22,958 nucleotides of DNA from a virus. Positions within the stretch are counted from its first letter, which is position 1; each line of letters starts with the position of its first letter. A program made the translations under genes and the position numbers. The notes beneath the pieces are model-generated. The model made no database searches and was not told the DNA's origin. It saw nothing but the letters and a program-made list of their open reading frames with translations. The DNA is taken from the IMG/VR virus record IMGVR_UViG_3300005347_000015, positions 1-22,958 of that record. The stretch is one strand, 5' to 3'. Positions 5,292-22,601 of the stretch are shown one piece after another.

Positions 5292-5933
5292 ATGCCAGAG
5301 GCTGCCGATACTTTACCCCGCAGCGTAGCCGAAGCCAGGAAGATCGGATCAAGCCGGTATTTTACCGGGAAGCCGTGCGTTCACGGGCACGTCGCGCCGC
5401 GAGCAACGTCGAGTATGCAATGTTGCGGCTGCATAACGGAAAGGTACGCCGCCCTCTATGCGCGGCGCAAAGACGAGCAAAACCGCAGAAATCGGGAGCG
5501 ATACGCAAACGACCCCGAATATAGAGCTAAGATACTGCGCGTTCAAAGTTATAAAGAAACTCGGCTGAAAGTCAACCTAAGAAGAAAGCAGAGATACCAC
5601 GCCGATCCGGTGTATCGAGAGAAAATGCTGGCCTTGAGACGCGTCAAGGTGGCGACTCCTGAAGTCCGGAGGAAATTAAAAAGCACGATGTTGAAGGTAC
5701 TTTATGGTATCACGCTAAATGAATATAATCACATCCTCGCCCGTCAAAACGGCGTGTGTGCAATATGCGGCAACCCACCGACGAGACATCTGGACGTTGA
5801 TCATTGCCACAAAACTGGCAGGGTCCGTGGTCTACTGTGCAATAACTGCAATAGGGGCCTCAGCCTGTTTTCTGACGAAGCTGCCATGGTGTTGAAGGCA
5901 TTTCACTACTTGGAAAGTAACGATGTCTATTAG
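5292..5933 (+). CDS. HNH endonuclease, endonuclease VII-like, probable homing enzyme
   Basis: A 213-residue DNA endonuclease of the recombination endonuclease VII type. The C-terminal domain (residues 150-190) has the family signature: zinc-binding C156/C159 and C183/C186 around LDVDHCHKTGRVRGLLCNNC, with D170-H171 as the catalytic start and N187 near the end. An N-terminal zinc-knuckle-like motif has C29, H31, H33, C44 and C47. Between them, basic repeats of the type RYANDPEYRAK and RYHADPVYREK are typical of DNA-contacting linkers in phage HNH enzymes. AAGGAG at 5280-5285 precedes the ATG. The gene is visibly AT-richer than its neighbours and separates capsid from adaptor genes, which suggests a freestanding homing gene that arrived by transfer. 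Its end overlaps the adaptor start by 11 bases. Confidence 0.88.
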   Translation: MPEAADTLPRSVAEARKIGSSRYFTGKPCVHGHVAPRATSSMQCCGCITERYAALYARRKDEQNRRNRERYANDPEYRAKILRVQSYKETRLKVNLRRKQRYHADPVYREKMLALRRVKVATPEVRRKLKSTMLKVLYGITLNEYNHILARQNGVCAICGNPPTRHLDVDHCHKTGRVRGLLCNNCNRGLSLFSDEAAMVLKAFHYLESNDVY

Positions 5934-6627: not shown

Positions 6628-7223
6628 TGGCAGACTCGATACTCGACTACCTGCGCGACGCGCTGAAAGGCCCCAAGGATTCCGCGCCGCCGCTCTCGAG
6701 CGCAGCGATGACGGCCGCGTTGTCGGGCGAGGACCCCAACGCCCAAGCGGCGTTTTTGGGCAGTTACATCAAGGACGCGCTGTCTCAGAGCCAAGCAAGG
6801 CTTGGCCCGATGCGGGTGGCTCAGCGCGGCCTCCCGGCTGACGCTGAAAACGCGCTTGCCCGCGACAGCGCGGCGTACAGCGCGGATTGGTGGAAAGCGC
6901 TGCGGCAAACCTATGGCGGCAGTAATCCGCCCGATCAACTGCTGCCCGATATAGGGCACTTCGCTCCCCGCAAACGGGACGATATGGGGGCAGCGGTTTG
7001 GCCTCACGCGGAGTCTGCGTGGCCGCCGCAATACCCGGTATCGCCGTTCACCAAGCCGTTCTCCAGCAAGCGTGGCTGGCAGAGCAATCCTTACGACAAC
7101 CCGCCGATCAGCGATGCCCCAGCGGGCAGTGGTTACGAGCCGTTCGCCGATCCCAACGCCGACCTGATCGACCGCTACCGCTGGCTCTGGAGCCCCCCTG
7201 CCTCCGCTAGGGGCGGAGGCTGA
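6627..7223 (+). CDS. Unknown protein between adaptor and nozzle genes
   Basis: A 198-residue protein I do not recognise. The first 80 residues are helical and Ala-rich; the rest is rich in Pro, Trp, Tyr and Asp (for example WPPQYPVSPF) and is probably extended or disordered, ending RYRWLWSPP followed by a small glycine tail. A GTG at 6621 is in frame, but ATG 6627 gives the TGATG overlap used at many junctions here. The stop is also in a TGATG overlap with the next gene. Position between two neck proteins suggests a virion or assembly role; this is inference only. Confidence 0.65.
   Translation: MADSILDYLRDALKGPKDSAPPLSSAAMTAALSGEDPNAQAAFLGSYIKDALSQSQARLGPMRVAQRGLPADAENALARDSAAYSADWWKALRQTYGGSNPPDQLLPDIGHFAPRKRDDMGAAVWPHAESAWPPQYPVSPFTKPFSSKRGWQSNPYDNPPISDAPAGSGYEPFADPNADLIDRYRWLWSPPASARGGG
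7200..7220 (+). promoter_or_regulatory. Hairpin covering the ribosome site of the nozzle gene
   Basis: GCCTCCGC (7200-7207) and GCGGAGGC (7213-7220) form a perfect 8-bp stem with a TAGGG loop. The 3' arm contains GGAGG (7215-7219), the only ribosome site before ATG 7223, and the arm ends next to the stop codon TGA at 7221-7223. A ribosome finishing the upstream gene would open the stem, so the hairpin should make the nozzle gene depend on upstream translation. The pairing is directly visible; the coupling is inferred. Confidence 0.5.
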
Positions 7224-8707
7224 TGGCGCGCTCGGCCCGCACGCTCACGATGGTGCCGTTCGGCGAGTGGACCCCCGACCTGCCGGCGGTCGGCAACCAG
7301 GGCTTGGTTATGGCGAGGAACGTGATCGCCGTGACCGAGGGCTCGTACACCGGGATGCCGAGCCTGGTGCCGTTTCAGGACGCGCTGCCCAGCCAAGTCA
7401 GCGGGCAGTATTCGCTAACGGACGTGTCCGGGGCCGCCACCGAGTGGGTCGGCGACACCAACAAATTGTGGGTCAAGGAGACCAGCTCTGCGAGCTGGAT
7501 CGATGCCACCAAGACCGGCGCCACCTACAACCCGGCCGCCGGCGCGGGCCACTGGACGGCGACCGCCTTTGGCAAGCGCATCATCTTCGCCAACGGTTGG
7601 GACCCGGTGCAGACCTACCTGCACGGCACCGACAGCCGGTTCTCCGACCTGGCGGCGTCCGCGCCGCGTGGCCGCTACGTCGCGGTGATCCGCGACTTTG
7701 TGTTTTTGGCCAATATGGCGGCGGACGGTCTGCCGCAGCGGGTGCAGTGGAGCGCGGTCGGCAATCCGCTGTCCTGGCCGACGCCGGGCACCGACGCGGC
7801 GGTACAGGTGCAGAGCGACTCATCCGACCTCGAGCAGACCGATCTCGGGCCGATCCAGGGCGTTTTCGGGGCCGGGTTCGGCGGATCGGACGGCGCGATC
7901 TTCGCGTCCTGGGGCATTTATCGGATTTCCTACGTCGGCTCGCCGGTCATCTTCGAATTCATCCCAAGCTCCGGCGCTCCCGGGACCTTGTCGCCTAAAG
8001 CGGTTGCGGTGGCGCCGATTTCGACGCAGCGCGGTTCTGGTTTTTTTGCGCTCTATCTCTCAACCGATGGTTTTTACGCCTACGACGGTAGCTCTGCCAG
8101 CGCGATCGGCGCGCAGAAATTCGACCGGATGTTCTATTTGACCGTCGACGAGAGCGCGATCCATGACGTGCAGGCGGTGGTCGACCCGCAGCGCAGGTTG
8201 GCGATGTGGGCCTATCGCACGTCAGGCTTCACCGGCCGCTACAACCGCCTCTTGACGTACAACTGGGAATTGGGTCGCGCCACCGTGGTCGATCTGACCG
8301 AAACCCCAATCGAGTGGGTCAGCGACCGCGACAGCGGCGACCGGATTTTTCGCGTGGTCGCGTTCGCTAGCAACCATCAAATGCACAGCTTCAGCGGCCC
8401 CGTGATGGATTGCGAAATCGTGACCGGCGACCGGCAACTCTTCGCGGGTCGCAAGGCGCTGGTGACCAGCACCCGGCCGATTGTCGATGGCGACGCCAAC
8501 CAAGTCACAATCACGCTCTCGACGCGGGACGTGCCGACAGACGAGGTTGTCTGGGACGCGGAGATCCCGGTCGACATCCTGGGCAACTGCCCGCAGCGCT
8601 CGGCCGGTCGCTACGTCCGATTCCGCCTGCGCCGCCCGGCTGGAACGGTGTACCGCCACATGCAAGGCATCGAGGTCGCCGCAACAGCAGCCGGCCGGCG
8701 AAGGTGA
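7223..8707 (+). CDS. Tail nozzle/hub-like protein (beta-rich)
   Basis: A 494-residue beta-rich protein in the position of the podovirus tail nozzle or P22 gp10-like stabilisation protein, which closes the tail tip and retains DNA. Its start, PFGEWTPDLPAVGNQGL, and GSYTGMPSLVPF resemble openings of such proteins. Residues 150-205 have RGRYVAVIRDFVFLANM then RVQWSAVGNPLSWP, a motif I recall from this group, where repeated strands form a propeller-like body. Repeated aromatic strands (GIYRISYVGSP, LYLSTDGFYAYDG) continue to the end. The reading is TGATG-coupled to the gene before; the stop is within a GTGA overlap with the next. The beta-propeller fold and precise role are inferred from family resemblance and gene order. 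Confidence 0.72.
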   Translation: MARSARTLTMVPFGEWTPDLPAVGNQGLVMARNVIAVTEGSYTGMPSLVPFQDALPSQVSGQYSLTDVSGAATEWVGDTNKLWVKETSSASWIDATKTGATYNPAAGAGHWTATAFGKRIIFANGWDPVQTYLHGTDSRFSDLAASAPRGRYVAVIRDFVFLANMAADGLPQRVQWSAVGNPLSWPTPGTDAAVQVQSDSSDLEQTDLGPIQGVFGAGFGGSDGAIFASWGIYRISYVGSPVIFEFIPSSGAPGTLSPKAVAVAPISTQRGSGFFALYLSTDGFYAYDGSSASAIGAQKFDRMFYLTVDESAIHDVQAVVDPQRRLAMWAYRTSGFTGRYNRLLTYNWELGRATVVDLTETPIEWVSDRDSGDRIFRVVAFASNHQMHSFSGPVMDCEIVTGDRQLFAGRKALVTSTRPIVDGDANQVTITLSTRDVPTDEVVWDAEIPVDILGNCPQRSAGRYVRFRLRRPAGTVYRHMQGIEVAATAAGRRR

Positions 8708-9452: not shown

Positions 9453-11249
9453 ATGTCATCCGGTCCCACGAAAGTCGGCACCAACACCACAACGTCCACG
9501 AGCACCCCATACAACGCCGATTATCTGACGCGGCTCTGGGACAAAGCGGAGACCCAATACGGCCAGGGCTCCACCAACTACGAGGACCCCAATCTAACCG
9601 CCGCCTACGGCAATTACCTCGGGAGCGGGTCGAACCTCGCCCAGACGACGGCGCCAGTGAGCTACGGCGCGTGGAACAACGCGGTGTCAGGCGGGCTCGG
9701 GGTCACCAACAGCCCCGTGTACTGGGACCTGTGGAACATGGGCAAGGGGCAGACCCCGACCCAGTTGAATATGACCGGCTACTCGAGCGGCCTGTCGGAC
9801 ATCGCCGACCGCTCCCAATCCACCGCCGAGGGCTACGCCTCGAACCTCTCCGACATCGCCTCGCGCGCCCCCGGGGTCGGCCAGAAATACGCCGATCAGA
9901 CGAGCGATTACGGCGCTGGCGCGGTAGACGCCGGCAACCGCTACGGCTCGTATTTGACCGGCGCCGCCGGCGACGCGGTCAACGCCGGCAATCAGTACGG
10001 CTCGTATCTGAGAGATGCCGCCGGCAACGTAATCGGGGCCGGCAACCAGTACGGCAGCTATCTGACCGACTACGCGCGCGAGGCGGCCGACACCGGCAAT
10101 CGCTACGGTTCCTATTTGACCGGCCTCGGCAACCGCACGCTGGGCAGCACCGATGCCTATCAAAACACGCTCAGGGATACGGCGTCGGGCGCGTATCTCA
10201 ACGCCAACCCGTACCTCAACGACACGTTCCGCACCGCGGCGGGTCAGGTGGCGCGGACCTACCAAACCGCAACCGCACCGCAGACCGACAGCAGGTTTGA
10301 GGGGGCACAGGGCCGCTACGGCTCGGGCGCGCTCGCCAACGCCAGAAGCCAAAACGAGCAGAACCTGGGCTCGACCTTGAGCGGGTTGGCGAGCGATATC
10401 TACGGCGGGAATTACGCCCGCGAGCGGGCCGCGCAGAATGCGGCGGCGCAGGCCGGCGGTCAGCTCAGCCTCGCGGAAAGCGACGCCGCGCGGCAGGCGT
10501 ACCGCGACGCTGCCACGGCTGGGCTCGGGGGTTACACCACCGGCATCTCTGGCCTCTCGAATGCCTCGCAAGCAGCCCTCACCGGCTACGGGACCGGGAT
10601 CACCGGATTGAGCGACGCCTCGCGCTCCGCGCTGACCGGCTACGGGACCGGGATCACGGGGCTGAGCGATGCCTCGCGCGCGACGCTGGCGGGTTACGGC
10701 CAGGGGAGCACGAGTGCGGCCGACGCTGGCAAACTGGCACTCTCCGGTCTGGAGGGGGCGCGGCTCGGCTATACCGGCGCCGCCAATACCGCCAATACCG
10801 GGTACAACACCGCGAGCGACGCGTACCGCAACGCCGGCGCGGTCGACACCGCCAATCTCAACGCGCAGTACAGCGGCCTCAATTCGTTGCAGTCCGGGTA
10901 CGACAGCGGCAACCGCAATCTGCTCTACGGGCTCGGCCAGACCGGGGAGATCAATAAGGCGCAGGTCGCCCCCTACGACACCGCGTACAAAGGCGCGTAT
11001 GGGCTCGACACGGCCGGGCAGGAGACGGCCGACGTAGGGTGGAAAGACCTGAACAGCCTGTCCGGCATCCTGGGTAAAGCGATCCAGGGCGACACGAGCA
11101 CGTCGCAACCGATCTACGGCAAGAGCTGGACCGATCGATTGTTGGGGCTCGGCGGCACGCTCGGCGGCGCGGCGTTGGGCGGGCCGATTGGGGCTTCGGT
11201 CGGCTCGTCCTTGGGCAACTCGCTTTCCGGTTCTGGGTCGAGCAAATAG
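9453..11249 (+). CDS. Repeat-rich internal virion protein, probable DNA-ejection protein
   Basis: A 598-residue protein very rich in Gly, Ala, Ser, Tyr and Asn. Residues 109-270 are nine back-to-back 18-residue units, each with Tyr at position 2 (examples: RYGSYLTGAAGDAVNAGN, QYGSYLRDAAGNVIGAGN). Residues 360-449 hold five or more further 18-residue units (GYGTGITGLSDASRSALT). Between them, GRYGSGALANARSQ and DIYGGNYARERAAQ are motifs I recall from large virion proteins of podoviruses. Residues 550-590 form a Gly-zipper hydrophobic stretch (LGLGGTLGGAALGGPIGASV), suited to membrane insertion. AAGGGA lies eight bases before the ATG. With the next two genes it resembles the trio of ejected internal proteins in T7 and P22; that parallel is inference from order and composition. 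Confidence 0.72.
   Translation: MSSGPTKVGTNTTTSTSTPYNADYLTRLWDKAETQYGQGSTNYEDPNLTAAYGNYLGSGSNLAQTTAPVSYGAWNNAVSGGLGVTNSPVYWDLWNMGKGQTPTQLNMTGYSSGLSDIADRSQSTAEGYASNLSDIASRAPGVGQKYADQTSDYGAGAVDAGNRYGSYLTGAAGDAVNAGNQYGSYLRDAAGNVIGAGNQYGSYLTDYAREAADTGNRYGSYLTGLGNRTLGSTDAYQNTLRDTASGAYLNANPYLNDTFRTAAGQVARTYQTATAPQTDSRFEGAQGRYGSGALANARSQNEQNLGSTLSGLASDIYGGNYARERAAQNAAAQAGGQLSLAESDAARQAYRDAATAGLGGYTTGISGLSNASQAALTGYGTGITGLSDASRSALTGYGTGITGLSDASRATLAGYGQGSTSAADAGKLALSGLEGARLGYTGAANTANTGYNTASDAYRNAGAVDTANLNAQYSGLNSLQSGYDSGNRNLLYGLGQTGEINKAQVAPYDTAYKGAYGLDTAGQETADVGWKDLNSLSGILGKAIQGDTSTSQPIYGKSWTDRLLGLGGTLGGAALGGPIGASVGSSLGNSLSGSGSSK
9777..10262 (+). repeat. Array of nine 54-base coding repeats (18 residues each)
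   Basis: Nine consecutive units of 18 codons without any insertion or deletion. Every unit has Tyr at position 2, preceded by Gly, Lys, Arg, Gln, Ala or Pro. Units 4-7 share YGSYL at positions 2-6, and units 3-6 end in GN at positions 17-18. At 100 degrees per residue, 18 residues equal five full turns of an alpha-helix, so the tyrosines would line up on one face. DNA identity between units is moderate, so the array is old or under codon drift. Confidence 0.85.
10530..10799 (+). repeat. Second array of 54-base coding repeats in the same gene
   Basis: Four clear units of 18 codons start at 10530, 10584, 10638 and 10692 with Gly-Tyr at positions 1-2; units two and three differ at only three residues (GYGTGITGLSDASR common to both). 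A fifth, diverged unit runs to 10799 and a sixth may follow. The close match of units two and three points to recent duplication. Confidence 0.85.
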
Positions 11250-11258
11250 GAGGGCGGG

Positions 11259-13877
11259 ATGGCAGCAAGTATCGGCTCCAACATCCGCGCCGGGCTCAAC
11301 CCCGACGACCCGTATTTTTATAATGTAGGCCAGCAATACCTCTTGCCCGGGATCACCGAGCAGGGTCCGGTCCGTGAGCTTCTGCCCGGGATCAAAGACC
11401 TGGGACCCGTCAGCGCTGCCCCCGGCATCCTTGCGCAACCGGCCGCTCCGCCTGCATCTGGCGGCATCCGCGGTCTCTTGTCCTCCTTATTCGGCGGCGG
11501 CGATGTCGGGGCGCTGTACGGCGACGCGCTGACACCGCAACAAGTGGCGGCGGCGAATGGGCGGCGCTTCCTCGGCGGGCTGCAGGCCGCGTTTGCCGGG
11601 CCGAGCTACTCCCTGGACCCAGGCAAGATACGGAGCGGATTCGACACGTTCGTCGCCGGGCTGACCGGCGGGCAGGGCGCGGTCGACGAAGCAGCGGCGC
11701 AAGCGCTGAAGGGCTCGGAGTTCGGGCTGAAACGGCGCCATGTCGGCGTGGAGGAGCGCGAGGTCGGGGCCAAGGAAAAAGAGGTCAGCGTCAAGGAACA
11801 GGAGGCGCGCGACAAGGCCGCGCTCGACGCGAAGTTCTGGAAGTGGATGTTCGGCCAGAACCCGGGGGCGATGCCCGGGCTGTTGCCCAGTGTGGGCGGG
11901 GACGGTGGCGCACCGGGGGGCGGCAGCGGGACGAGTGCGCCGCCGGGGGGCGGGGCCGGAAGACTCGGCTTTGGCGATTTGCGCCAGCTCGCCGTCAACG
12001 CTGGGTTCAAAGGCGAGGGAGCCGACCAAATAGCCGCCATCTCGCTCGCCGAAAGCGGCGGCGATCCCTACGCACACGGCGACAAGCGCCTCGGCGGTTC
12101 CTACGGAGTGACCCAGATCCACCGCCCGGCGCACGGCGACAAGGCGCTGGAAGCGTATGGCAATCCAGCGCGGGCAATGGAGCTTGCCTACAATATCAGC
12201 AAGGGCGGGACCGACTTCAGCCCGTGGACGATGTACAAAAATGGCGGCTATCGCCAGTTCCTGCCCGCCGGAGGCAGCGGCGGCAGCACCGAGCCGCCGC
12301 AACCCGCGCCTGGCGCCGGCGGGGATGCGGCACCCCGCGGTGTGTTGCCGCCGGTGCAAATGACACCTCAGAGCCCGACCGCGCCGGTCGCCGGCGACAC
12401 CAGGGCGGATTTGGAGCGCAAGGACCGGCTGCGGCAGCAAGATCCCTACTTGGGGCTGGGTCCATCGGGGACGGGTTCGATGCCGCCGCCCGCTCCAGCC
12501 GCGGGGATACTGACCCCGCCAGGTGCTCCGCCGCCGGCACCCGCTGCTCCGCCGCCGATCGGAGCGCAGCCGCCACAAACCTTGCCACCCGCGCCCGGCC
12601 CCGGCCCCGCGGGCGGGATCGACCCAGCAACCCGGCAAGCGATCGGGATGCAGTACATCGGCGGCCGGCTCGGCATCCCCGGGCTCGGCGGGATCATGAC
12701 CGGCTCGCCGGCGTATCAGGGGCAAATCGCAGCAGAGAAAAAGCGGGTGGATCTGCAGTTCCTCCCGCAAGAGGAGGCAATCAGAAACCTGTCGAAGTAT
12801 CTCAGCCCCGAGGCCAATGTCGAATTGCAGCGCGCCCTTGCGACGGTCAAGTCGCAAGCTGAGTATCCCCAACAAATCGGCCTCGCCAACCAGAACGCCA
12901 TCAACACGCAGGAAACCAACCGGCTGCAGCAGGAACGCGCGGCGCAGACCGAACTGACGACACTGCCGGTCGAATACCCCGATGGGCGGCGCCAGGAGAT
13001 CACGGTTACCCGCGCGCAAGCCGCTGCCGTTCGCAACGGCACGCTGCCGCTCTCTGCCTTGCTCCCTGGGGCGCCCGGTCCTGCGGCGGGTCCAGGTCCG
13101 CTTGGCCCGACCCCTCAAGCAGCGCCGCCCGCAGGGCAGAGTTTACCCCCAGCGGAGGCAGGGGCGGGGCCGGCGCCGGCGCCAAATGCACAAGGCGCTC
13201 CCGGAGCGCCGCTCATCGGCAAGACGGTCCCGACAGAATTCGAGACCCAACTCACGGCGCCAGCGGCCAAGGCATTCCAGGCGCGGTCCGACGCGGCCCA
13301 AAAGACCGCCACCTCACTGGATGCCACCCGCGAGGCAAAGCGGCTCGTGGATAGCGGCATCTATACCGGCAAGCTCGCCGATCTGAAATTCCAGCTCGCG
13401 AAGCTGTTTGGCACCGAGGGCGGCAATGCTCGGGATACGGTGGCGCGCACCGAACAGTACCTGATATCGCGAGCCGCTACCGTGCGGGACATGATCGGCG
13501 TGCTCGGTTCCGCCAACGCCGTCAGTAACCTCGACCTCGAATTTACCCGCGAAGCGGCCGGCGGCACCAAGACCCTCGATGAGCCGACGATCCGCCGCAT
13601 CCTGCTGCTTGAGGAGAGGTACGGGCGCAAGGCGATCGAGCGCTTCAACCGCGATGCCGCCAAAGTGGAAGCCAGAACCAACCTGCCATATCCGCTGCAG
13701 ATCGAAATGCCGCCGTACATCCACAGACCGGAAGAGGTCAACGCCGACGTGCTGCCGCCCGCATCGGAAGGGCGCACGCCCGGCACTGCGGCGCCAGCGG
13801 CAGGCACCGTGCAGGACGGGTATCAATTCCTCGGCGGCGATCCCGCCAACCCGAAAAGCTGGCGGAAGGTGCAGTAG
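11259..13877 (+). CDS. Large internal virion protein with lysozyme-like transglycosylase domain
   Basis: An 872-residue multidomain protein. Residues 25-55 repeat LPGI-x-E/D-x-GPV. Residues 163-190 hold three seven-residue charged repeats (VGVEERE, VGAKEKE, VSVKEQE), a likely coiled coil. Residues 240-345 are a lysozyme-like (SLT-type) domain: IAAISLAESGGDP with E265 as probable catalytic acid, GGSYGVTQIH, then NPARAMELAYNIS and WTMYKNGGYRQF. It should cut peptidoglycan strands during DNA entry. Pro-rich linkers fill 345-455 and 600-670; helices occupy 485-570 and 675-830, including VLGSANAVSNLDLEFTREA. An AGGAGG-like ribosome site (11247-11252) precedes the ATG. Comparable to T7 gp16, which also carries such a domain; orthology is not claimed. 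Confidence 0.8.
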   Translation: MAASIGSNIRAGLNPDDPYFYNVGQQYLLPGITEQGPVRELLPGIKDLGPVSAAPGILAQPAAPPASGGIRGLLSSLFGGGDVGALYGDALTPQQVAAANGRRFLGGLQAAFAGPSYSLDPGKIRSGFDTFVAGLTGGQGAVDEAAAQALKGSEFGLKRRHVGVEEREVGAKEKEVSVKEQEARDKAALDAKFWKWMFGQNPGAMPGLLPSVGGDGGAPGGGSGTSAPPGGGAGRLGFGDLRQLAVNAGFKGEGADQIAAISLAESGGDPYAHGDKRLGGSYGVTQIHRPAHGDKALEAYGNPARAMELAYNISKGGTDFSPWTMYKNGGYRQFLPAGGSGGSTEPPQPAPGAGGDAAPRGVLPPVQMTPQSPTAPVAGDTRADLERKDRLRQQDPYLGLGPSGTGSMPPPAPAAGILTPPGAPPPAPAAPPPIGAQPPQTLPPAPGPGPAGGIDPATRQAIGMQYIGGRLGIPGLGGIMTGSPAYQGQIAAEKKRVDLQFLPQEEAIRNLSKYLSPEANVELQRALATVKSQAEYPQQIGLANQNAINTQETNRLQQERAAQTELTTLPVEYPDGRRQEITVTRAQAAAVRNGTLPLSALLPGAPGPAAGPGPLGPTPQAAPPAGQSLPPAEAGAGPAPAPNAQGAPGAPLIGKTVPTEFETQLTAPAAKAFQARSDAAQKTATSLDATREAKRLVDSGIYTGKLADLKFQLAKLFGTEGGNARDTVARTEQYLISRAATVRDMIGVLGSANAVSNLDLEFTREAAGGTKTLDEPTIRRILLLEERYGRKAIERFNRDAAKVEARTNLPYPLQIEMPPYIHRPEEVNADVLPPASEGRTPGTAAPAAGTVQDGYQFLGGDPANPKSWRKVQ

Positions 13878-15440
13878 ATGCCCGGCCCGTGGGAGCAATA
13901 CCAGCAGCAGCAGCCCGCAACCCTGGCACCGTGGGAGCAATACCAGCAGCCGCAACCGGCCCAGGCCCCAGCGCCGCTCCGACCTGAGGCGTACTCCCCC
14001 CGCACCGACCCGCTCTTCCAAGCCGGCCAGTTTGCCGCGACCTACGGTCCGCGCGCGGTGGCCGGCGTGGTCGATGCCATCGCCGATCCTATGGCAGGGC
14101 TGCGGCGCTTTGTCGGCACCGGCATTATGAACGATCCGCGCATTGCAGGGGTCGACGCCCAAAATCCAGGCCCCGGCACGCGAGCGGTCGATTGGCTGTT
14201 CAAAACCACCGGCATGCCGGAGTACCAGCCGCAAGGCGCGGGCGGGCGTGTCGGCGCAGCCGGGGTACAGGGCGTCGCGGCAGGCGCCCCGTTCGGGCCA
14301 GTCGGCTCGGCGATCGGCGGCGCGGCCGGGACAGTCGGGCAGACCGTAAAAGAGGTCGGCGACCGCTACTTCCCCGAGCGCAGCGACCAGGCCGCCGAGG
14401 TGGCGAGCTTGGCGCCGGGGGTGCTGGCGGCTGGCCGCAATGCGTTCCGCCGGCAACCGGCACCCAGTGCGCGGGAGCTGACGGGGGCGGGCGGTGCGGG
14501 ATACGACGCGCTGCGCCGCTCCGGCCTCGAGTATGAATCGGCGCCGACCGCGAACTGGGCCGGTCGGGAGCGGCAGGCTCTCCACATGGACGGGCTGCCG
14601 GAGGAGCTGGCGGGGACGACGCACCGGCTGTTGGGCCAGATTGAAAACCCGCCGACCACCCCGGGCACGACCGTCACCCACACCTTCGGCCAACTTCACG
14701 CGCTGCGCACCGCGCTAGGGAAGGTTGCTACCCAGACCGCGGACGGGCGGCCGACCCAAGACGCTCTTGCCGCCTCTCGTGTCATTCCCCGGCTCGACGC
14801 CTACATGGAAAACCCGGGGGCAATGTCGCTCGCCGCCGGGACGCCGGCAGAAGCCGCCGCCGCGGGTCAGCAGCTCCGCGACGCAAACGCCAATTACAGT
14901 GCAGGCTTGCGCTCGAATACCCTGACCGGCGGGCTGGCGCGCGGCGATCAAGGCATTCTGCCGCAAGCCGAGGGCGCCGCAGCCGCCGCCAATTCAGGCG
15001 CCAATCTGGACAATGCAATCCGTCAACGCGCCCGCTCGCTGGTCAACAACGAAGCCAGGCTGCGCCCGTACACCGATCAGGAAATCGACGCGCTGCGGAC
15101 CATCGAGCGCGGCACTTTTGCCCGCAATACGGCTCGCAACGTTGGCAACCTGCTCGGCGGTGGGCGTGGGTTGGGAGGGTTGATTGCCGGCGGGGTCGGC
15201 GCGGGTGTTGGTTCGTCATTTGGCCCTGTCGGTGCCGCGGTGGGCTCCGCGGCCCTCCCGGCTACCGGCATGTTGTTAAAAGGGCTCGAGAACCGGCTGA
15301 CCCGACGCGGCGTCCTCAACCTCGATGAACAGACCCGGGCGCGCTCGCCGCTCTACGAACAGCAGCTACAGAATATTCCGCCCTTGGAGCGCCAGGCGCA
15401 GATCGCCCGCGGCCTCTTGCCCGCCATCCTGGGCTACTGA
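13878..15440 (+). CDS. Internal virion protein with Gly-zipper segments, probable ejection protein
   Basis: A 520-residue protein following the transglycosylase gene with no gap (TAG then ATG; AAGGTG seven bases upstream). The N-terminus has two PWEQYQQ motifs 14 residues apart in a Gln/Pro-rich tail; such PWE-x-Y/F motifs recur at the start of phage ejection proteins and may be docking sites. Residues 125-160 (GRVGAAGVQGVAAGAPFGPV and on) and residues 423-470 (LGGLIAGGVGAGVGSSFGPV and on) are Gly-zipper hydrophobic stretches able to enter a membrane. The middle is helical, Ala-rich and without a recognised enzyme motif. It ends hydrophobic (LLPAILGY). A role in forming a channel for DNA across the envelope is plausible but inferred from composition and position. 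Confidence 0.7.
   Translation: MPGPWEQYQQQQPATLAPWEQYQQPQPAQAPAPLRPEAYSPRTDPLFQAGQFAATYGPRAVAGVVDAIADPMAGLRRFVGTGIMNDPRIAGVDAQNPGPGTRAVDWLFKTTGMPEYQPQGAGGRVGAAGVQGVAAGAPFGPVGSAIGGAAGTVGQTVKEVGDRYFPERSDQAAEVASLAPGVLAAGRNAFRRQPAPSARELTGAGGAGYDALRRSGLEYESAPTANWAGRERQALHMDGLPEELAGTTHRLLGQIENPPTTPGTTVTHTFGQLHALRTALGKVATQTADGRPTQDALAASRVIPRLDAYMENPGAMSLAAGTPAEAAAAGQQLRDANANYSAGLRSNTLTGGLARGDQGILPQAEGAAAAANSGANLDNAIRQRARSLVNNEARLRPYTDQEIDALRTIERGTFARNTARNVGNLLGGGRGLGGLIAGGVGAGVGSSFGPVGAAVGSAALPATGMLLKGLENRLTRRGVLNLDEQTRARSPLYEQQLQNIPPLERQAQIARGLLPAILGY
13887..13950 (+). repeat. Exact 22-base direct repeat encoding the PWEQYQQ motif
   Basis: CCGTGGGAGCAATACCAGCA plus GC occurs at 13887-13908 and again at 13929-13950, a spacing of 42 bases. 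It encodes PWEQYQQ twice near the N-terminus of the 520-residue protein. Exact identity at the DNA level suggests a recent duplication or gene conversion. Confidence 0.85.
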
Positions 15441-19760: not shown

Positions 19761-22601
19761 ATGGCGCGCATCCGCATTTCCGATATGACGGCAGGGACGC
19801 TGCCGATCGCCAGCTCGTCGCTGATCGAGGCGTCCGTCGTCAACGGCACGGCGCCGAGCGGCTACGATACCCGTCGCTACACGATCGCCGAGGTGCTGTC
19901 GCAGTCGGTCAACCAAACGATCACGATCTCAGGCGATGTCACTGGGAGTGGCACGACCGCAATCACGGCGACAGTGACGCGCCTTCAGGGCCAGGCGGTG
20001 TCTGCAACGCCGCCCACAGGGACACAAGTCCTCCAGTGGAATGGATCGGCGTGGACGCCCACGACGCTCTCCGCTGGCGGCGGCGGCCTCAGTGGCATGA
20101 CCGCGGGTCAGATACCGATCGCGGCCACGGCCTCGACTGTCACCAGCAGCGGTAATTTGTCGGGCGATGTCACGACAAGCAACTCGTTGGCAACGACGAT
20201 TGTGGCAGACGCGGTGACGACTGCAAAGATCGCCGCCGGCAATGTCACCTATCCAAAAATTCAAAATGTCGCGGGATCTCGCCTCCTGGGCAATCCCACT
20301 GGCAGCGCCGCAGCGCCTGCCGAGATTACGCTCGGGACGGGGCTGAGCTTCACTGGCTCGACCCTCAATGCCGCGGGCGGCGCTGGAGATCCGTACTTCG
20401 GCAATGTTGTCCTGCTGTGCCATTTTGACGGCGCTAACGGAGAGAATACTCACCCTGACAGCTCGTCGTTTCATCGCACCGTTACCGGCACGACCGGCTA
20501 TGTATTAACTACGTCCGAATTTAAGTTCGGTAATGCGTCGTTACAGTGCCCGAACTCCACCGGCTCTGCCGGTACCCCCGATAACGCTGCCTGGGATTTT
20601 GGCGCCGGCGAGTTCACGGTCGAATTGTGGGTGCGGCGCACCAGCACCGGGACTGACGCGCTTATCGGGCAATTCTCGAATCCGGCCAATGTCGGTTGGA
20701 GCATCAGGTCTGACACCACGACCAACAGTTTACAGTTTTTATATAGCACAGACGGCACTACGTTCTCGACTGTCAGTGCTACTTACACGCTGCCTCTTAA
20801 TACTTGGGTACACGTCGCCGCCGATCGCGATGCCCTCAATGTATTGCGACTTTATGCCGATGGCGTCGTCATCGCATCGGCTACAGCCGCAGTAACATTT
20901 TGGAACACGACGGTGTTGCTGATGATCGGTTCCGACAGCACCGCGCGACCTTTTGGCGGTCAGATCGACGAAGTTCGCATAACCAAAGGCGTGGCCCGCT
21001 ACGCCGGCGCGTTTACGCCGCCGACCGCAGCGTTCCCTGATTTCTTAGGGGCCGGGACAATCACTGGAGTGACTGCCGGGACAGGTCTTACCGGCGGCGG
21101 CAAGACAGGCATCGTCACGCTCAATCTGGCGCCTATTACGGCAGCGCGGCTCCTCGGCAATCCGACCGGGTCGGCGGCGGCCCCGAGCGAGATCACGCTG
21201 GGGACGGGGCTGAGCTTCACTGGCACGACGCTCAATGCGACAGGCGGAGGCACAACCCCGACCGTAACGACCAAAACAGCCAACTACACGGTCCAGGCGT
21301 CTGATCTGGGCAACACCCTGATCTTAGGTGGCACCAATCCCGCGCTAACCTTGCCAGCCGGTATCTTCACGCCCGGCAAGACGCTTACCCTGCTGGTTAC
21401 GGCTACATTTGCTTGGTCGATTACTAACTCGACCGGTCTGACGATCGTTGGCCATAATACATCGACTATGCCAACTGGTACATCCGCCACTCTTGTCGCC
21501 AATGCAGACGGTACAACGCTCAATTTTATCCCCGGTATGCAGGCTCCATCGGCTTCGTCGCTTGGAGGGGTAAATTCAATAAGTGCTACTACAAACAGGT
21601 TTCTTACCGCACTTAGTGGGCAAGGTGTTTTTGCGACAGCTCAGCCCGCCTTCTCCGGCATCACCGGCACCGCAACAATCGCGCAGGGCGGCACCGGGCA
21701 AACGACGGCAGCGGCGGCATTGACCGCGCTGGGGGGACTACCTCTCGCGGGCGGCACGCTGACCGGCGCCCTCACGATTGCGCCGCCGAGCGGATGGAGT
21801 ACTTTTGCGCTTAATAAGACCGCTGGCAGCAACGCAAACAATCTTGTTGGGTCTGTTGCCTCGTTGGGCCGCTGGGACATTTTGCTCGGGGACAACACTG
21901 CCGAGAGTGGTGGCGGAACGAACAGCGGCAGTGACTTTTCGATTAGCCGGTACACCGACGCCGGTACGTGGAACGGCAACGTGCTGGCGATCAACCGCGC
22001 CACCGGCAATGCCACGTTCAGCGGCACCATCACCGCTACGGCTATAACGCGCCCGGCAGGCACCGACAATTTTAATATATCGACGGCCGCGGGCGGCAAC
22101 CTCAACCAGATCGGGCTGCTGGCCGCGACGACCTACACTAACGGTGCCCTTACAGTGTACGGCGCCCAGCAGAACTACGCTGGCATCGTCGTAGGCAACC
22201 CGACTGGCGGCAACAAGGGCGCGGACACCCTCAACGCGTTCGCCGTCTATGCCAACAACGTCCTCTTAACATCCGACGCCCGGCACAAGGAGGACGTGGA
22301 ACCGCTGCCGGAGGGCTGCCTGGAGCTGGTGCGGGCGATCGAGCCGAAACGGTTCAAGTTCCGCAAACCGGAGCCTCCGACCGCACCGGAGGGAATGCCG
22401 AAGCCGCCACCCATACCGTTTGAGCCGCGCACGCAGTGGGGGTTCCTGGCGCAGGATTTTGCAAAGGTCATGGACACGGCGGTGGTCACCGACAAGGAAG
22501 GCAACCATGCGCTGGGGGTCAGTGACCTGATCGCGACCCTTTGGTCCGCGGTTCGGGAGCTATCGAACGAGGTCGCCGAGTTGAAGGGGAAGCGGCGGTG
22601 A
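19761..22601 (+). CDS. Tail fibre 2 with LamG domain and C-terminal S74 chaperone domain
   Basis: A 946-residue fibre. Its first 40 residues (MARIRISDMTAGTLPIASSS, then IEASVV and SGYDTRRYTI) resemble fibre 1 and should anchor it. Residues 209-428 form a LamG/concanavalin-like domain (LLCHFDGANG, FGNASLQCP, FTVELWVRRT, WVHVAADRD, FGGQIDEVRITKGVARYAGA), probably sugar-binding. It is bounded by two copies of a 34-residue segment starting RLLGNPTGS. Then come shaft repeats such as GTATIAQGGTGQTTAAAALT, typical of phage fibres. Residues 838-946 are an S74 domain: TSDARHKEDV with S838/K843 at the right spacing but His where Leu is usual, then WGFLAQDFAKV. A coiled coil closes the protein. GAGG precedes the ATG; the stop overlaps the next gene (GTGA). 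Confidence 0.88.
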   Translation: MARIRISDMTAGTLPIASSSLIEASVVNGTAPSGYDTRRYTIAEVLSQSVNQTITISGDVTGSGTTAITATVTRLQGQAVSATPPTGTQVLQWNGSAWTPTTLSAGGGGLSGMTAGQIPIAATASTVTSSGNLSGDVTTSNSLATTIVADAVTTAKIAAGNVTYPKIQNVAGSRLLGNPTGSAAAPAEITLGTGLSFTGSTLNAAGGAGDPYFGNVVLLCHFDGANGENTHPDSSSFHRTVTGTTGYVLTTSEFKFGNASLQCPNSTGSAGTPDNAAWDFGAGEFTVELWVRRTSTGTDALIGQFSNPANVGWSIRSDTTTNSLQFLYSTDGTTFSTVSATYTLPLNTWVHVAADRDALNVLRLYADGVVIASATAAVTFWNTTVLLMIGSDSTARPFGGQIDEVRITKGVARYAGAFTPPTAAFPDFLGAGTITGVTAGTGLTGGGKTGIVTLNLAPITAARLLGNPTGSAAAPSEITLGTGLSFTGTTLNATGGGTTPTVTTKTANYTVQASDLGNTLILGGTNPALTLPAGIFTPGKTLTLLVTATFAWSITNSTGLTIVGHNTSTMPTGTSATLVANADGTTLNFIPGMQAPSASSLGGVNSISATTNRFLTALSGQGVFATAQPAFSGITGTATIAQGGTGQTTAAAALTALGGLPLAGGTLTGALTIAPPSGWSTFALNKTAGSNANNLVGSVASLGRWDILLGDNTAESGGGTNSGSDFSISRYTDAGTWNGNVLAINRATGNATFSGTITATAITRPAGTDNFNISTAAGGNLNQIGLLAATTYTNGALTVYGAQQNYAGIVVGNPTGGNKGADTLNAFAVYANNVLLTSDARHKEDVEPLPEGCLELVRAIEPKRFKFRKPEPPTAPEGMPKPPPIPFEPRTQWGFLAQDFAKVMDTAVVTDKEGNHALGVSDLIATLWSAVRELSNEVAELKGKRR
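20280..20381 (+). repeat. Direct repeat copy 1 flanking the LamG module
   Basis: Encodes residues 174-207 of fibre 2, starting RLLGNPTGSAAAP. It matches the copy at 21147 at all but four of 34 residues, including an exact 24-base run at 20334-20357 that corresponds to 21201-21224. It lies immediately before the LamG-like domain. Confidence 0.85.
21147..21248 (+). repeat. Direct repeat copy 2 flanking the LamG module
   Basis: Encodes residues 463-496 of fibre 2 and repeats the segment at 20280 with an offset of 867 bases. It follows the LamG domain after a short Gly/Thr-rich linker (GVTAGTGLTGGGKTGIVTL). Together the copies frame the LamG domain as a removable module. Confidence 0.85.

Follow-up and report, generated by a model that had tools for sequence, protein, structure and literature searches.

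The window analysed here, a 22,958-bp stretch that makes up one IMG/VR viral record and may not be a whole genome, carries an open reading frame of 598 aa (positions 9453–11249, + strand; hereafter P0001) in which tyrosines recur every 18 residues. The locus raises the question of what kind of phage protein contains such a repeat, and what its strict spacing could do. A preliminary description had reported nine in-phase, tyrosine-led repeats and had proposed a single alpha-helical rod of about 160 residues with the tyrosines on one face, in a putative ejected protein outside any named repeat family. The frame was found to hold two repeat arrays, a conserved family core and a C-terminal tail.

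Two arrays of 18-residue units

Tyrosines occupy residues 110, 128, 146, 164, 182, 200, 218, 236 and 254 of P0001, each 18 residues from the next, and are encoded by TAC at eight of the nine positions and by TAT at residue 236. When in-phase tyrosine runs of any period from 5 to 40 were counted, the run of nine at period 18 exceeded the longest found in 20,000 composition shuffles (seven, reached twice). Identity autocorrelation was likewise strongest at period 18, followed by 36 and 54, with z values for period 18 of 10.5 over the whole protein and 13.9 over residues 100–270; this period did not come first in any of 15 further proteins of the window that were scored.

The spacing described earlier was thus borne out, whereas the picture of nine equivalent repeats was not. 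Array 1 consists of seven tyrosine-led units (residues 110–235; 9780–10157, +), delimited by the tyrosine positions, autocorrelation and Tandem Repeats Finder (TRF), and a weak eighth unit (residues 236–253) runs into the family core. The ninth "unit" starts at Tyr 254 and corresponds to the core's invariant NPY motif, so that the run of nine tyrosines is made up of eight array units plus the core. Strong likeness was confined to units 164–235 and reached at most 12 identical residues of 18; neighbouring units shared 12/18 (164/182), 8/18 (110/128) and 2/18 (218/236). The best-kept part comprises YGSYL-type units (Tyr 164–221; 9936–10154, +), where the nucleotide identity of neighbouring units was at most 76%, and TRF reported a 54-bp array at 9920–10122 with 70% matches. 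A second IMG/VR contig (L001) matched the window at 100% identity over 6,725 bp, up to position 10177 within array 1; most of this array is therefore unlikely to be an assembly artefact, with the qualification that L001 may or may not be an independent sample. A search with the unit sequences of array 1 returned this identical contig only, and no copy-number variants of the arrays of P0001 itself.

Array 2, absent from the preliminary description, lies beyond the conserved core and comprises four units of the YGTGITGLSDASRSALTG type (residues 361–432; 10533–10748, +), with tyrosines at 361, 379, 397 and 415. It was recognized from these tyrosines, from autocorrelation (z 9.3 for period 18 over residues 340–490) and from TRF (84% matches). 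The best alignment of array 1 with array 2 was in register, but a fraction of 0.11–0.12 of column-permuted controls equalled it, and a search with the unit sequences of array 2 found no relatives. Relative to the core residue Tyr 321, array 2 is out of 18-phase, with no phase-0 aromatics; the next aromatics instead lie 29 and 40 residues beyond it, after which they recur every 18 residues. Read as steps of 18+11, 11, 18, 18 and 18, this progression keeps the same helix face.

Separately, a 583-aa open frame runs antisense to the repeat gene (9687–11438, −), probably as a side effect of codon bias.

Family membership and gene neighbourhood

Relatives of P0001 were sought in IMG/VR through the conserved core (approximately residues 240–335), which yielded 47 loci in one search and at least 371 relatives in a wider one, from which the 80 best were retained. 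Their typical length was 250–330 aa, and a family profile was built from 54 of them. P0001 scored 99.1 bits against this profile, a value reached by none of 500 local shuffles. The core itself (approximately residues 236–345; 10158–10487, +) is marked by the motifs YLNANPYL (containing Tyr 254), GRYGSGA and DIYGGNYARER (containing Tyr 321), and residues 231–439 alone scored 105.2 bits. The Gly/Ala-rich, hydrophobic C-terminal tail (residues 520–598; 11010–11246, +) added a separate match of 18.7 bits to the end of the profile, where the end of SU10 gp22 aligns with the same element. The family profile also found SU10 gp22 (40.0 bits) and gp21 (12.1 bits), scores to be read beside large composition-bias values of 59.6 and 64.7 bits, respectively, but equalled by none of 500 local and 500 full shuffles in either case.

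Both SU10 proteins matched PHROG 4287, "DNA ejection protein" (E = 9.5e-118 for gp21 and 3.5e-109 for gp22), as did relatives in several sets (6/6 in one that included gp21 and gp22, and 5/8 and 2/3 in others). P0001 gave no direct match to the PHROG 4287 profile up to E 10, and its membership therefore rests on the intermediate relatives; by way of their profile, P0001 groups at the sequence level with SU10 gp21/gp22 (PHROG 4287). This grouping agrees with the ejected protein proposed earlier. According to two published reports, SU10 gp20–24 are present in virions and missing from a genome release intermediate (PMC9509320), and mass spectrometry detected both gp21 (53.4% coverage) and gp22 (49.1%; PMC4281155).

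Other searches with P0001 were empty within their scope. Pfam and NCBIfam gave no match and no known repeat family, and PHROGs gave nothing up to E 10 other than one chance-level match (E 5.1); Pfam likewise revealed no known repeat family in the relatives. No relatives were found among annotated phages with P0001 as the query (tblastn and blastn), nor among solved structures by sequence up to E 1. Among prokaryote genome contigs, 54 matched the core pattern and none was confirmed by core alignment.

As a side observation, a Peptidase_S74 intramolecular chaperone domain was seen at the end of some family members; tail fibres commonly carry this domain, but an ejection protein would not be expected to. 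Pfam placed it at residues 221–268 of L050 (E 2.2e-7), 255–305 of L023 (E 1.8e-4) and 368–418 of L081 (E 4.1e-4, below the curated cut-off).

The gene neighbourhood is SU10-like in its portal, capsid and adaptor genes, and a scaffold gene is also present. Upstream of P0001 lies a gene for a virion structural protein (phrog_3287; 7223–8707, +), which occupies the same gene-order slot in related phages. The next gene downstream (11259–13877, +) encodes an 872-aa protein with a lysozyme-like SLT_3 domain (PF18896, E 1.7e-14), a probable peptidoglycan-cutting ejection protein. Caulobacter phage Kuura shares the order structural protein, small gene, family protein and transglycosylase; its gene 019 is the family protein (PHROG 4287 match), and the gene after it bears a transglycosylase annotation. 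In SU10, by contrast, the transglycosylase gp20 precedes gp21, so that the order in the window is reversed. SU10 further differs in having two paralogues, gp21 and gp22, which are shorter than P0001 (350 and 322 aa) and have no period 18 (z 0.6 and 1.2, respectively). The P0001 gene nevertheless stands among structural and ejection genes and adjoins a transglycosylase gene, as does the SU10 gp21/gp22 pair, and this placement speaks for membership in that family.

Three further genes of the window are worth recording. The second gene downstream (13878–15440, +) encodes a 520-aa protein whose best autocorrelation period is 11 (z 3.4), with 22 (z 2.7) and 18 (z 2.6) also within the top four; these are helix-compatible strides as in P0001, and the product is perhaps another ejection protein. 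Between the capsid and adaptor genes lies an endonuclease VII-like gene (5292–5933, +; PF02945, E 1.4e-22), possibly a homing endonuclease insertion. A probable tail fibre of 946 aa (19761–22601, +) combines a concanavalin-like domain, DUF5907 repeats and a C-terminal S74 chaperone.

Period 18 in long relatives

The C-terminal side of the core was examined for periodicity in 75 non-redundant relatives. Forty-five were scored; the other 30 were dropped because the core or NYxxER was missed by the pattern or the C side was too short, and one of these, L065, was read by hand. Period 18 ranked first in 6 of the 13 evaluated relatives of at least 400 aa (L011, L017, L005, L013, L040 and L051) and in none of the 32 shorter ones. 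One of the 13, L016, has a listed length of 655 aa that includes upstream reading; it is likely to be 304 aa and does not truly belong among the long relatives. L065 takes ten consecutive 18-residue steps from its core Tyr 322.

Aromatic residues were then counted by offset over the 144 residues after the core tyrosine in 14 long proteins, namely 12 of the 13 (without L016), L065 and P0001. At offset 0 (mod 18), 27 aromatics were found against 6.96 expected by shuffling (p 0.0001, an optimistic value because the long relatives are partly akin to each other), and P0001 contributed none of them. The next commonest offsets were 4 (20 aromatics) and 11 (16), and on an alpha-helix offsets 0, 4 and 11 share one face, spanning no more than 40 degrees. 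Taken singly, six relatives chosen by eye after their units had been seen gave p values from 0.00005 to 0.16. Among the short relatives without arrays (L007, L016, L020, L035, L036, L045 and others), several have an aromatic at +22 from the core tyrosine; this is two times 11, again the same helix face.

The long relatives L011, L065, L002, L013, L017 and L051 thus resemble P0001 in having C-side units of 18 residues with an aromatic lead and helical character. They differ in that their period is counted from the core tyrosine, whereas array 2 of P0001 comes after strides of 29 and 11, and in that their units are YNxGxDRxxQ-like, whereas those of P0001 are YGSYLT or YGTGIT. A unit sequence common to the window arrays and those of the relatives was considered and rejected as a general claim, with 1 of 16 register comparisons below 0.05 (array 2 with L008, 0.007 by column-permuted controls). 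Since the relatives do not share unit sequences, the arrays may have arisen independently under one spacing rule.

Gaps between related proteins gave a picture that is suggestive only, because the three pairs were hand-picked from a longer list and because in that list gaps near the C-terminus measured 12–19 residues and most gaps fell in the N-terminal region of one clade. Between L002 and L065 (56% identity), the stretch after the core differs in length by 54 residues (41+13), equal to three units, and lesser gaps of 4, 7, 2, 1 and 4 follow; on the N-terminal side of the core the difference is 34+21 = 55, not 54. An 11-residue gap lies just after the core between L008 and L095, and a gap of 11 also separates L102 and L122.

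Predicted structure and helix stripe

AlphaFold2 was run on P0001 with 26 sequences in the alignment and gave a model with a mean pLDDT of 57.8 and a pTM of 0.29, in which 271 of the 598 residues were under 50. Both arrays are predicted to be helical in this model. Array 1 was modelled as helices 112–138, 143–170, 175–195, 201–227 and 234–244, with pLDDT blocks of approximately 47–76, followed by a core helix at 253–283. A single long helix was predicted from the core into array 2 (residues 292–402; 10326–10658, +), its pLDDT falling from 96 to approximately 50–60. The monomer prediction that had been suggested as a check therefore supports helices, with no beta strands and at modest confidence, but divides array 1 into five pieces and does not support one continuous rod of about 160 residues. 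The model of the relative L018 (54 sequences) was all helical, with a mean pLDDT of 71.7 and helices at 107–137, 145–189 and 195–262.

Because a sequence of period 18 can peak only at multiples of 20 degrees, the bare hydrophobic-moment test was replaced by column permutation. By this test, the moment of array 1 at 100 degrees gave p values of 0.0012, 0.0014 and 0.038 on three scales, in keeping with the one-faced helix envisaged in the preliminary description. The values for array 2 were 0.028–0.065 and those for L011 0.037–0.15, and the stripe was not significant in L065, L051 and L005.

Fold searches against the PDB returned generic helical matches only (best Z 6.7 and 8.0), and Foldseek found no match in the PDB at E 0.001 or better. 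In BFVD, the full P0001 model likewise had no match at E 0.001 or better, and the L018 model had 17 matches with no named ejection protein among them.

A probable helical ejection protein and alternative explanations

We consider it probable, with room for doubt, that P0001 serves a short-tailed phage as a member of the SU10 gp21/gp22 family of ejection (pilot) proteins, with helical arrays that extend the family core. Such a protein would be carried in the head, would exit by way of the portal and tail during infection and, together with the neighbouring transglycosylase protein, would extend the path of the DNA across the host envelope. Both arrays would be alpha-helical expansions flanking the core. 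The unit may measure 18 residues because these make five turns, each unit thereby keeping a hydrophobic/aromatic stripe on one face, and a constant face would let the helices pack on neighbouring subunits along a longer wall, or on the core, with the register unchanged. What the analysis itself establishes is the profile-based membership in the family, the period, the stripe, array 2 and the prediction of helices. The ejection role is suggested by homology with SU10, and from the same reading we infer presence in the virion, oligomeric packing and an effect of array length.

The arrays could plausibly belong to the DNA conduit. How they might pack into the wall of a tube may be imagined after the known ejectosomes of T7 (gp14/gp15) and DEV (gp73/gp72), which are built from helical ejection proteins of short-tailed phages, one of them membrane-inserting (PMC8954989, PMC10925440). 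P0001 showed no sequence or fold match to these proteins, and the T7 gp14/gp15, P22 and DEV ejection proteins were absent among the fold matches listed; a relation may still exist.

The arrays could instead be a flexible, structurally disordered low-complexity linker that grew by 54-bp DNA duplication and whose phase is not under selection. A composition of 16% Gly, 10% Ser and 7% Asn would suit a linker, as would the low pLDDT over much of P0001 and the lack of arrays in the short relatives and in SU10 gp21/gp22, but the helix-periodic hydrophobicity of the unit exceeds column permutation, both arrays are predicted to be helical, and long relatives with differing unit sequences keep the same period; we regard this explanation as unlikely. 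A beta-solenoid with one 18-residue unit per coil is hardly credible and was disfavoured already. Left-handed beta-helices have 18 residues per coil, so that the unit length fits, but the P0001 model has no strand, and the moment of array 1 has its maximum at 100 degrees, with low values at 160–180.

In a further reading, the number of units would act as a ruler and fix how long the trans-envelope tube is, in analogy to tape measure repeats in long-tailed phages. Published work on tape measure proteins describes Trp/Phe repeats with aromatic markers every 11 residues and quotes a mixed pattern, possibly 11-11-18 (PMC3271669), and P0001 shares such regular, helix-compatible aromatic spacing in its period of 18 and in the 29- and 11-residue steps that lead to array 2. 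The 54-residue difference between L002 and L065 would also fit a ruler. Against it, arrays are missing from most short relatives and from SU10 gp21/gp22, and P0001 has no match to a tape measure family in Pfam or PHROGs. We think a ruler very improbable. Tape measure proteins belong to long-tailed phages and act in setting tail length. The precedent has a second consequence, namely that an aromatic spacing of 18 is itself less novel than the preliminary description implied, even with Pfam, NCBIfam and PHROGs all empty for a named repeat family.

Returning to the helical ejection protein, the SU10 cryo-EM study is reported to have left the ejection proteins unresolved (PMC9509320), and a literature search by title and the start of abstracts, with few subscription papers, found no description of 18-residue repeats in ejection proteins among the papers listed. 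The phase-locked stride of 18 and 11 predicts long, straight helices with one aromatic face that can be extended by whole strides, and the natural length variants form a test set for this prediction. In its boldest form, which we rate as a long shot, the trans-envelope tube would be adjustable in length, the core helix gaining or losing whole strides (18 residues for five turns, 11 for three) while its aromatic stripe keeps its orientation, and a short-tailed phage would thereby fit its conduit to the host envelope by the arithmetic of a tape measure. If array length does follow tube length, the length of the conduit would be a measurable trait encoded in the sequence.
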